Shown here piece after piece: positions 25,368 to 27,558 of a stretch of 64,000 nucleotides of DNA. This stretch comes from Halomontanus rarus. GTDB taxonomy: Archaea; Halobacteriota; Halobacteria; Halobacteriales; Natrialbaceae. Numbering within the stretch: the first letter of the stretch is position 1; every line of letters begins with the position of its first letter. The notes beneath the pieces are model-generated. The model was not told the origin of the DNA. It worked only from the letters and a program-made list of their open reading frames with translations, and made no database searches. The translations under genes and the position numbers were made by a program. Location of the stretch: positions 3,410,001 to 3,474,000 of the forward strand of contig NZ_CP071597.1 in the NCBI RefSeq assembly GCF_017357405.1. The letters run 5' to 3'.

Positions 25368-27188
25368 CTACAGTTGATCCTCCGAGAGTGCGAACTGTCC
25401 GTTGTCGCCGCCGCTCGGAACCATCGGATAGACGTTGGCCTGCGGATCGACGTGGGCGTCGATCACCGACGGTCCGTCGTAGGCCAGCGCCGCTTCGACG
25501 GTATCTGCGACCTCGTCGTACTCGTCGATCCGGAAGCCTTTGGCACCGAACGCCTCGGCGAGGGTGTCGAACTCGGGACACCAGTGGTACTCCGACGCGG
25601 AGTGTCGGCCCTCGAAGAAGGCGTCCTGCCACTGGCGGACCATTCCGATGTACTCGTTGTTGAGCACGACGATGGTGATGTCTAAGTGCTCGCGCACGGC
25701 GACCGCCAGCTCTTGCATCGTCATCAGGAACGAACCGTCGCCCTCGACGCAGATGACTTCCTGGTCGTCGTCGGCCGCGAGTCGTGCGCCGACGGCGGCC
25801 GGGAAGCCGTAGCCCATCGTTCCGAGCCCGTGACTCGAGACCCACGTCCGAGGTTCGGTGTAGGTCCAGTACTGGCAGGCCCACATCTGGTGTTGGCCGA
25901 CGCCGGTCGTGACGATCGCGCGATCGCTGGTGGCCTCGTCTAACGCTTCGACGACGAACTGCGGCTTGACCGGTTCGTCCTCGGGCGTGTCGTAGGCCAT
26001 CGGGTACTCAGATTTCCACTGCTGGCACTGCGCTCGCCACTTCTTGGCCTGCGGCGAGCGCTCCATCTCCTCGTCTAACTGCTCGACGACGGTCGCGGCG
26101 TCGCCGACCAGCGGGTACTCCGCGTGAATGTTCTTCGAGATCTCCGCGGGGTCGATGTCGATGTGGATCAGTTCCGCGTCGGGCGCGAACGTCTCGATGC
26201 CGCCGGTGAGCCGGTCGTCGAACCGGGTTCCGATTCCAATCAGCGTGTCGCAGTGGGTGATCGCCATGTTGGCGTAGCCGGTACCGTGCATGCCGGCCAT
26301 CTCCATCGAGAGCTCGTGATCCTCGGGGAACGAGCCGATGCCGGGCATCGTCGTCACGACCGGAATTTCGTGTTCGGTCGCGAACTCGCGACACGCTTGC
26401 GAGGCGTCGCCTTTGATGACGCCGCCACCCAGCAGCAAGGCCGGCCGCTGGGAGTCTTCGATCCGCCGCGCGGCCGCGCGAACGACTTCGTCGTCTGCGC
26501 GCTCTTGGACCTCGTAGGTGTCGGGAACTCGAGCCTCGGCCGGCTCGCGGTCGGTCTCCGAGAGCGTAACGTCCTTCGGTAGGTCGACCAGCGTCGGTCC
26601 CGGCCGGCCGGTGTTCGCCAGTGCGAACGCCTCGCCGACGTCGTCGCCGACCGTGTCCGCGTGGGAACTGAAGGTGTTGGCCTTCGTGATCGGCGTCGTG
26701 ACGCCGGTCGTGTCGGTCTCCTGGAAGGCGTCGTTGCCGACCATCTCCGTCGGCACTTGGCCGGTCAGCGCGATCATCGGGTCCGAGTCCATGTCCGCGT
26801 CCGCGATGCCGGTGACGAGGTTCGTCGCGCCCGGCCCCGACGTCGCCAGGCAAACGCCCGGTTCGCCGGAGACGATGCCGTAGGCGTCCGCGGCGTGGGA
26901 CGCTCCCTGTTCGTGGGCCATCGTCACGTGCGTGATGTCGGAATCGTAGAGGGCGTCGTAGACGGGCATGATGGCCCCGCCCTGAACGCCGAAGGCGTAC
27001 TCGACGCCGACGTTCTCTAACGCGCGGATGACCGACTGTGCGCCGGTCGTGACGGGTTCGGGCGTCGATTCGGGTTCCGTTTCGGTGGAGTCCGACGCCG
27101 ACTGTTCTGAGTGTTCGTCTTGCTCCTGTTCGTGTTCGTGTTCCTCGTCCTGCTCGTCCGGAGGGGAAACCGCAGCTCGTTCGCTCAT
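25368..27188 (-). CDS. ilvB: Acetolactate synthase large subunit
   Basis: This 606-residue ThDP-dependent enzyme has the catalytic glutamate region HVTMAHEQGASHAADAYG, the FAD/middle-domain block GIGTRFDDRLTGG and the ThDP motif VEGDGSFLMTMQELA...NNEYIGMV. It condenses two pyruvates, or pyruvate with 2-oxobutyrate, in the first common step of valine and isoleucine synthesis. Residues 1-45 are an acidic Gln/Glu/Ser-rich extension. The gene is preceded by a 170-nt leader that begins with a 26-codon ORF. Confidence 0.96.
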   Translation of the reverse strand: MSERAAVSPPDEQDEEHEHEQEQDEHSEQSASDSTETEPESTPEPVTTGAQSVIRALENVGVEYAFGVQGGAIMPVYDALYDSDITHVTMAHEQGASHAADAYGIVSGEPGVCLATSGPGATNLVTGIADADMDSDPMIALTGQVPTEMVGNDAFQETDTTGVTTPITKANTFSSHADTVGDDVGEAFALANTGRPGPTLVDLPKDVTLSETDREPAEARVPDTYEVQERADDEVVRAAARRIEDSQRPALLLGGGVIKGDASQACREFATEHEIPVVTTMPGIGSFPEDHELSMEMAGMHGTGYANMAITHCDTLIGIGTRFDDRLTGGIETFAPDAELIHIDIDPAEISKNIHAEYPLVGDAATVVEQLDEEMERSPQAKKWRAQCQQWKSEYPMAYDTPEDEPVKPQFVVEALDEATSDRAIVTTGVGQHQMWACQYWTYTEPRTWVSSHGLGTMGYGFPAAVGARLAADDDQEVICVEGDGSFLMTMQELAVAVREHLDITIVVLNNEYIGMVRQWQDAFFEGRHSASEYHWCPEFDTLAEAFGAKGFRIDEYDEVADTVEAALAYDGPSVIDAHVDPQANVYPMVPSGGDNGQFALSEDQL

Positions 27189-27291
27189 CGGATCCCTCCC
27201 GGCACGGTCGTATGCCGTCGGTTGCTCTGTGCTCGAGGTGTTCGGGTTCGGGTTCGTGTTCGTGTCATTGTGTGGCTGTTCGTGCTCCTGT

Positions 27292-27306
27292 CCGGTCTGG
27301 AACCGG
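27292..27306 (-). promoter_or_regulatory. Second small hairpin in the ilvB leader
   Basis: The inverted repeat CCGGT-ctgga-ACCGG lies in the untranslated part of the ilvB leader, between the leader peptide and ilvB. It has a 5-bp GC-rich stem with a 5-nt loop. It may be part of a leader-RNA structure; there is no U-run after it, so it is not an ordinary terminator. Confidence 0.4.
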
Positions 27307-27355
27307 CTCGTCGCTCTGAAAACGATGCGGATTCGAATCGAGAAGGTACTGGTGA

Positions 27356-27373
27356 AGGGGCTAGAAGGCCCCT
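27356..27373 (-). promoter_or_regulatory. Hairpin at the stop codon of the ilvB leader peptide
   Basis: A perfect 6-bp inverted repeat (AGGGGC...GCCCCT, 6-nt loop) lies exactly over the last codons and the TAG stop of the leader ORF. In the RNA the first arm is part of the Val-Gly-Ala codons, so a ribosome there would prevent pairing. No U-tract follows, so intrinsic termination is not obvious. Confidence 0.6.
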
Positions 27374-27441
27374 ACAATAACGAGCGAGGCGAACGCGGCG
27401 CTGCCGGGTTCGGCGGCCGGAGCGGGATCGCGTTCCTTCAT
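27361..27441 (-). CDS. Putative leader peptide of ilvB (26 residues, ends LVIVGAF)
   Basis: This 26-codon ORF begins MKERDPAPAA and ends SLVIVGAF. Its ATG lies 26-34 bp behind a strong TATA box (27467-27475), so it should be the very first codon of a leaderless ilvB mRNA. The Leu-Val-Ile-Val run is just before the stop, and these are the products of the pathway encoded downstream. The composition is halophile-like (acidic, Ala-rich), unlike random frames. Bacterial ilv leaders have the same logic; I know of no described archaeal equivalent. Expression is unproven. Confidence 0.6.
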   Translation of the reverse strand: MKERDPAPAAEPGSAAFASLVIVGAF

Positions 27442-27466
27442 TACTGTCTCCGTAGGACTCCCGAGA

Positions 27467-27475
27467 CATATAATT
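27467..27475 (-). promoter_or_regulatory. TATA box of the ilvB leader transcript
   Basis: On the minus strand the element reads AATTATATG, an archaeal TATA box whose centre is ~26 bp before the expected start site at about 27445. That site is 4 nt before the ATG of the leader ORF. It is among the most AT-rich words in this GC-rich gap. Confidence 0.75.
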
Positions 27476-27558
27476 CTTGTGCGGCTGGCGAACCTTGCAC
27501 GAACCCGGCGAACCCGCCAGCCGGTGCTCACCGCCGGAAGCAAACGAGGCGCGCATAG

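Follow-up and report, generated by a model that had tools for sequence, protein, structure and literature searches.

The stretch of DNA analysed here, referred to as the window, comprises 64,000 nucleotides of Halomontanus rarus (positions 3,410,001 to 3,474,000 of contig NZ_CP071597.1). A leader region is located between leuA and ilvB on its minus strand, and ilvB is followed by ORFs which, by reading, resemble ilvN and ilvC. The leader comprises a TATA-like box, a short near-leaderless ORF (uORF1) with the C-terminal end SLVIVGAF, a perfect 6-bp hairpin (stem A-GGGGC/GCCCC-U, 6-nt loop) enclosing the last uORF1 codons and its TAG stop codon, and a second small ORF (uORF2) which ends on the ilvB start codon (Table 1). 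The ilvB ATG lies 172 nt past the uORF1 stop codon. The original prediction, made from the sequence of the window, had described the 26-codon ORF with this C-terminus, a TATA box upstream of it, the 6-bp hairpin over the last codons and the stop, and an ilvB start about 170 nt downstream; each of these was recovered, whereas the conserved uORF2 had been overlooked. The pattern ATYGTAGGGG-N(1-12)-CCCC has a single occurrence in the 5.17-Mb genome, and the looser GTAGGGG-N(1-12)-CCCC occurs twice in the window versus 0.19 expected.

Table 1. Positions of the leader elements and adjoining genes in the window.
Feature	Position	Strand	Basis or remark
TATA-like box GAATTATATG, promoter of the ilvB leader	27467..27476	-	sequence and A+T profile over uORF1-bearing loci
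uORF1, near-leaderless leader peptide MKERDPAPAAEPGSAAFASLVIVGAF and stop, 26 codons	27361..27441	-	counterpart ORF in 109/110 ilvB loci
Regulatory codons CTC-GTT-ATT-GTA (Leu-Val-Ile-Val)	27373..27384	-	codon statistics and conservation
Conserved core ATT-GTA of the uORF1 regulatory codons	27378-27373	-	
Hairpin AGGGGC-CUUCUA-GCCCCU over the uORF1 stop codon	27356..27373	-	folding and stem counts
G-free C/U/A tract, begins at the hairpin 3' arm	27350..27360	-	11 nt here
uORF2, basic 27-aa ORF MTRTRTRTRTPRAQSNRRHTTVPGGIR and stop, TGA overlaps the ilvB ATG (ATGA)	27185..27268	-	
ilvB, acetolactate synthase large subunit	25368..27188	-	
leuA-start ORF, near-leaderless, MSTPHDSSETPQGGRVLPGHVRLH and stop	28789-28715	-	overlaps the leuA start

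Conservation of uORF1 across Halobacteria

A total of 110 ilvB loci were collected as sets of 80 and 30, with organisms overlapping between the sets and the window's own locus among the 30. For folding and pairing, sets of 94-97 sequences were used from which loci with a uORF1 of fewer than 17 codons or a leader above 400 nt, as well as duplicates, had been removed; similarity clustering at 0.72 yielded 39 groups. A short ATG ORF ending in Ile-Val-Gly-Ala/Val was present upstream of ilvB in 109 of the 110 haloarchaeal loci. The same proportion carried the motif AT(T/C)-GTA-GGGG...CCCC with a hairpin at the stop codon, situated in these 109 loci 87-423 nt upstream of the aligned ilvB match and in frame with the upstream ATG. 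The Ile codon was ATT in 98 and ATC in 11 of them, and the 110th locus (L108) has GTC-GTA-GGGG instead of the Ile codon form. The uORF1 stop codon lies one (27 loci), two (69) or six (13) codons beyond GGG; it is TAG in 97, TAA in 10 and TGA in two loci, the three kinds exchanging in frame with loops of differing length.

In a sample of the class Halobacteria the motif was matched in 280 of 292 genomes, a count of motif matches, the leader ORF itself having been inspected in the 110 loci, as well as in 27 of 30 motif loci returned for this sample. In the remaining three of these 30 (L133, L135 and L140) the copies of ATTGTAGGGG are not followed by ilvB; L133 was removed from the hairpin counts, of which L135 and L140 were never part. 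Twelve genomes lacked the motif: eight have a variant leader, three have none and one (G203, locus L153) is cut by a contig end and was left out of the leader verdict. The variants are GTA-GTA (G062, G075), GTC-GTC-GTA with a GTG start (G190), CTC-GTT-CTC-GTA (G027), a GGGCC/GGCCC stem (G199), ATT-CGC-GTA-CGGGCC (G046, G234) and a GGGG/CTCCC stem (G147). The three genomes without a leader within 480 nt upstream of ilvB (G032, G034 and G297; loci L151, L150 and L152) belong to two other families; by reading, a leuA-like gene ends in that upstream stretch.

At the level of the phylum, the motif was found in 76 of 81 Halobacteria versus 47 of 311 other genomes, with 26 of 311 for a reversed-pattern control (rows read by eye). 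The one match inspected among those 47 (G610) has the motif on contig C2 and ilvB on contig C40, with no leader in the 480 nt shown upstream of its ilvB. From the family of G498 (f19), which we take to be the Methanosarcinaceae, 24 of 25 fetched loci were read and none had a comparable ilvB leader; in many of these loci the upstream stretch reads as the end of a leuA/cimA-like gene. The leader was found in all seven Haloferax relatives examined.

Regarding the residue before GTA, the 109 loci have Ile. L108 shares Val with three other genomes, a single genome has Leu, and two have Arg, both Arg cases being ATT-CGC-GTA, in which Arg comes after the Ile codon. The codons seen before GTA were ATT, ATC, GTC, GTA and CTC, so the identity is mostly still branched-chain where the DNA changes. 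Among the 39 group representatives, Ile, Leu and Val make up 54% of the residues at uORF1 codons -3 to -1 versus 16% at its other codons. The codon GTA, which the motif search pattern itself demanded, is present in 110 of 110 leaders, including the single locus that failed the pattern, whereas ilvB itself uses GTA for 8 of 1740 Val codons (coding sequences of the 39 group representatives); ATT is present in 98 of 109 leaders versus 80 of 881 Ile codons in ilvB. The conserved regulatory run consists of two codons only. The run Leu-Val-Ile-Val, at first proposed as the regulatory stretch, is present in the window as the local form of a near-universal core, Ile-Val(GTA).

Codon-position bias in the N-terminal part of uORF1 is weak (499/589/683 changes), and the open uORF1 frame is no argument alone, because in this GC-rich DNA another of the two remaining frames is open too (39 of 39). 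Across the uORF1-bearing loci the A+T content peaks at -37/-36 and -32 to -27 from the uORF1 ATG, which puts a TATA box about 30 nt ahead of the ATG, where a near-leaderless start would have it; the RNA start would therefore lie within a few nt of the ATG. Comparison of the haloarchaeal ilvB upstream regions showed the ORF, the branched-chain codons, the hairpin and the near-leaderless promoter to be conserved class-wide, so that the lack of conservation which would have refuted the original prediction was not observed.

Hairpin, spacer and uORF2

For the 28-nt hairpin segment the folding energy is -12.1 kcal/mol (z = -2.5 versus dinucleotide shuffles), whereas over its full 283 nt the leader is about as stable as shuffled sequence (z = -0.45). 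Stems of 5-9 bp were found in 115 of 115 distinct sequences, to be read against a weak control in which a shuffled C-rich 3' side gives at least 5 bp in 54% of trials. The median pairing probability of the hairpin in 94 folded leaders was 1.00. The hairpin core yields little covariation because G4/C4 hardly varies; the stem pair next to it exchanges among C-G (93), T-G (7) and T-A (5), and one stem pair is swapped in G199. A second hairpin, proposed at 27292-27306, was found, by reading, among 36 aligned group representatives only in the nearest relative of the window (L001). Membership in the T-box or another Rfam family was rejected: the window gives only a tRNA elsewhere at gathering score, and the ilvB leader only sub-threshold hits. 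Five of 30 pheS loci compared with the Rfam covariance models also gave sub-threshold hits only.

The spacer between the hairpin and uORF2 was analysed in 37 group representatives (spacers shorter than 30 nt or without uORF2 left out). The G content of the first 15 nt past the hairpin is 3-4% versus 33% in ilvB, and a G-free run of at least 12 nt occurs in 28 of the 37 spacers versus 0.4% of positions in the ilvB coding sequence. The G-free tract which begins at the hairpin 3' arm has a median length of 20 nt. TTTT was found in 15 of 37 spacers (3.0 expected), mostly well downstream of the hairpin, and TTTTT in four (0.7 expected). A spacer so depleted of G and bearing such U-runs leaves room for a transcriptional output. 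As a candidate anti-Shine-Dalgarno sequence the C/U tract past the hairpin was rejected, its excess being only about -1.3 kcal/mol and matching composition. In the aligned ilvB leaders a second conserved spacer element with the consensus CGCACCG(UUUUC) lies about 25-40 nt past the hairpin; pairing of this element with the Shine-Dalgarno/start region of ilvB is possible in Natrialbaceae.

In 103 of 109 loci the ilvB start codon shares nucleotides with the TGA of a small upstream ORF (ATGA or GTGA). Past the uORF1 stop codon, the first ATG encountered opens this frame in 102 of the 109, three loci having no such ATG and four ending elsewhere. In the 36 of the 39 group representatives that have uORF2, it is 9-79 codons long and separated from uORF1 by 50-208 nt (median 74). 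The encoded peptide is basic (K+R 18%, D+E 7%), a composition odd for a haloarchaeal protein, which is why uORF2 is taken as a device that brings ribosomes to ilvB. Passages of a study on Haloferax volcanii report termination-reinitiation coupling which fades at 30-40 nt spacing (PMC12548453), and uORF1 is thus too distant for direct coupling.

When a ribosome stall was simulated by keeping the covered segment unpaired, 32 of 94 leaders showed better access to the ilvB start and six showed poorer access, an effect that goes back to complementarity between this start and the codons immediately preceding Ile-Val. Access to the uORF2 start was hardly altered (more open in 10 of 94, less in five). 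A two-dimensional scan of every second of the 94 sequences and of the 39 group representatives placed the duplex-energy minimum at the ilvB start. The helix is kept in 38-55 of 55 aligned Natrialbaceae sequences per pair, and the pairing is strong in part of the Natrialbaceae and in Haloferax. As a universal mechanism it was rejected, with z below -1.5 in only 11 of 39 groups and a permutation P of 0.17; the true ilvB-start partner was better than average in 20 of 39 groups, and significant covariation was not found. Against a synonymous-codon null, z was -0.44 +/- 0.20 with the leader randomised and +0.24 +/- 0.21 with ilvB randomised. The search for mutually exclusive leader structures yielded this pairing only, a candidate structure restricted to certain lineages.

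Leaders at other genes

Upstream regions of further genes were surveyed with a common filter (a TATA-preceded ATG ORF of 14-45 aa). Leaders enriched in the cognate residue were found at ilvB (branched-chain residues, 25 of 30 loci), pheS (Phe, 18 of 30) and trpS (Trp, 8 of 30), and the other combinations of gene and residue gave 0-4 loci each. Cognate-residue ORFs under this filter numbered 0 of 30 at trpE, 2 of 25 at hisG, 2 of 25 at leuS and 1 of 25 at ileS, with no peptide shared between species; at leuS the survey covers the true upstream region in 10 of the 25 loci (L297-L306), which start where the gene does, the other 15 having matched the C-terminal part.

By pattern, 22 of 30 pheS loci have a leader whose C-terminus is a variant of GFGFFFAR, and looser forms occur in L156 and L179. 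An exploratory comparison of these 22 aligned leaders showed possible base pairing between their Phe codons and a conserved element ahead of the pheS start. In the pheS loci (L155-L184; own-genome copy L173) a T-rich promoter element is present, and the leader lies 132-177 nt before pheS in seven of eight loci measured. Of 30 trpS loci, 12 have a leader with Trp-x-Trp; all 12 belong to the 15 full-length matches (L241-L255), taken for one trpS paralogue. An (S)R/GADSV stretch mostly comes after Trp-x-Trp (own-genome copy L248).

At leuA, a conserved ATG ORF one nucleotide out of frame with the gene was found in 75 of 76 loci, the other one (L068) being cut near a contig end and left out of the count; in 65 of these 75, leuA is without an in-frame ATG, GTG or TTG within 75 nt. 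The arrangement makes haloarchaeal leuA a candidate for +1 ribosomal slippage. Slippage was already suspected for HVO_1510 of H. volcanii (PMC8305020), and the present data extend that suspicion across the class.

Proposed mechanism and comparison with known systems

The ilvB leader is interpreted as a sensor of branched-chain amino acids which probably controls ilvBNC through the position of the ribosome; the sensing step by itself is considered more probable still. That the speed of the ribosome at the Leu-Val-Ile-Val codons could control ilvBNC had been suggested in the original prediction, and the class-wide conservation of the ORF, the branched-chain codons and the hairpin argues for such a role. 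Also in its favour are the rarity of the codons, the in-frame exchange of stop codons, the exchanges at stem pairs, the promoter position, the uORF2 overlap, the cognate leaders at pheS and trpS, and the transcription-translation coupling and termination-reinitiation reported in H. volcanii; the shortness of the two-codon run, the weak codon-position bias of the N-terminal part, the weak stem control and the small effect of the simulated stall on uORF2 count against it. The ilvBNC mRNA would start at or just before the uORF1 ATG, and a ribosome would load at the 5' end of the RNA. The end of uORF1 has rare Ile/Val(/Leu) codons, situated at the base of the hairpin which holds its stop codon. 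With ample amino acids the ribosome would reach this stop codon and depart, and the hairpin would re-form; under shortage it would wait on the Ile/Val codons, sit over the 5' arm together with the codons adjoining it upstream, and keep the RNA open. Since a waiting ribosome would cover the 5' arm and a finished one would free it, the hairpin would read the supply of branched-chain aminoacyl-tRNA. The signal would be received by uORF2, which probably delivers ribosomes to ilvB by termination-reinitiation, a coupling suggested by the conserved ATGA overlap.

Control of ilvB translation is the preferred output, given about even chances of being the actual one; it is a preference and not a result, because the leader/ilvB-start helix is not significant over the 39 groups, and passages of the H. 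volcanii start-site paper, which judge translational control by structured leaders to be untypical of haloarchaea (PMC4983044), count against it. The main rival retains the sensor and assigns the output to transcription: after the ribosome leaves uORF1, the naked G-poor C/U tract and the U-runs would terminate the polymerase, at a U-tract or by FttA/aCPSF1. Transcription-translation coupling has been reported in H. volcanii (PMC8576121, in part), so such an output is equally possible in principle; sections of two further papers describe archaeal termination at poly(U) and by aCPSF1/FttA (PMC8116511) and name FttA as the likely cause of polarity (PMC12548453), and the G depletion and the excess of TTTT and TTTTT in the spacer agree with this reading. 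Transcription attenuation is nevertheless given less than even chances: the U-runs are short and present in under half of the groups, a conserved terminator is absent, a stalled leading ribosome alone would favour termination, which is the wrong sign unless RNA folding overrides it, and the conserved uORF2 overlap is left unexplained.

Three further readings were considered. Both uORFs might merely deliver ribosomes to ilvB constitutively, a role that short uORFs can have by themselves according to part of PMC12548453 and with which the frequent uORF2 overlap agrees; the branched-chain codons, their rarity and the hairpin would then be unexplained, and uORF1 ends beyond the coupling range reported for H. 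volcanii, which makes this reading unlikely. That the hairpin is the binding site of a regulatory protein on RNA or DNA, with the ORF incidental, would account for the almost invariant nucleotides of ATYGTAGGGG and for GUA being retained even where it is unpaired. Such a site would have to be reconciled with the preserved ATG frame, the mostly branched-chain identity and an in-frame stop codon of three kinds kept while the loop length varies, with its location at the end of a near-leaderless ORF, and with cognate leaders of unrelated sequence at pheS and trpS; it is considered very unlikely, and its form as a DNA operator was rejected since the loop length varies. Slightly less credit still is given to a functional microprotein or an arrest peptide acting via its chain and not via tRNA charging. 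The conserved C-terminus IVGA/V speaks for it; however, the hairpin 5' arm takes in the Gly codon and the first part of the codon after it, the residues beyond vary, with 13 of 109 ORFs reaching six codons past GGG (e.g., LSPHF, PTPRL, SSPHL), and the N-terminal part of uORF1 is poorly conserved.

Returning to the ribosome-position sensor, it appears fairly probable that haloarchaea possess a whole class of amino-acid-sensing leader peptides (at ilvBNC, pheS, a trpS paralogue and perhaps, via slippage, leuA). This would be a first archaeal case of leader-peptide attenuation, one with a leader in two parts, uORF1 and uORF2, and with an output that does not resemble the terminator switch of bacteria. 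If so, a class-wide leader, obvious from the sequence, would add a regulatory layer to archaeal amino-acid metabolism, its presence in Haloferax relatives would make archaeal amino-acid sensing directly testable, the further leaders at pheS and trpS would suggest a general strategy, and the question of convergence with ivbL of Escherichia coli would be raised.

Leader-peptide attenuation is a textbook bacterial mechanism which depends on a link between ribosome and polymerase. It involves a short ORF upstream on the same transcript, here present in 109 of 110 loci with the shared transcript suggested by the position of the promoter, and codons for the pathway's own amino acids, which are enriched at the regulatory position of uORF1. 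An intrinsic terminator (hairpin and U-tract) after uORF1 was not found, the hairpin being followed by a C/A/U tract; the original prediction had likewise seen no U-tract terminator at this place, and none of the bacterial type was present in the ilvB leaders, so that, as the original prediction had suspected, the output step would differ. The E. coli leader peptide IvbL (MTTSMLNAKLLPTAPSAAVVVVRVVVVVGNAP) is also encoded by a short ORF upstream of ilvB, has branched-chain codons near its C-terminal end, and shows Gly and, one residue on, Ala before the stop. It differs in its longer Val run, and the E. coli ilvBN leader has an intrinsic terminator and an antiterminator. The haloarchaeal leader, in contrast, is near-leaderless; a single branched-chain/Val pair can be all that stands at the hairpin over its stop codon, and the leader lacks a bacterial-type terminator and has a second, overlapping uORF. 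In translational attenuation of the ermC type, stalling of the leader ribosome is drug-induced; there, as in the sensor proposed here, a start site further downstream would become free once that ribosome stalls, sequestration of that site at haloarchaeal ilvB being a candidate only.

The ilvBNC attenuators of actinobacteria and Corynebacterium likewise combine a leader peptide with hairpins before an ilvBNC operon and differ in being bacterial transcription attenuators, as described in parts of PMC11857589 and PMC1262725. Among the uORFs in long 5'-UTRs of H. volcanii, the table of PMC4983044 includes one of 26 aa before pheS and one of 23 aa before Trp-tRNA ligase, which are likely the same as the leaders described here (the table gives no sequences); ilvB is absent from the listed entries, and the passages concerned offer no amino-acid-sensing interpretation. 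In agreement with the original prediction, which knew of no archaeal precedent, no report of leader-peptide attenuation in archaea was found in searches of the open-licence literature. Neither 'attenuat' nor 'leader peptide' occurs in the text of PMC8116511. In the relevant passages of three other papers, attenuation figures only as a bacterial case (PMC8576121), is cited only for the E. coli tryptophan operon (PMC12482152), or concerns the E. coli thr leader (PMC11481537).

Because the defining bacterial terminator is absent, the haloarchaeal leader is not filed as a classical attenuator, although on the sensing side it would work like one. Its closest analogue, by position and by branched-chain codons near Gly and Ala, is ivbL, in the sense of analogy and not of homology.
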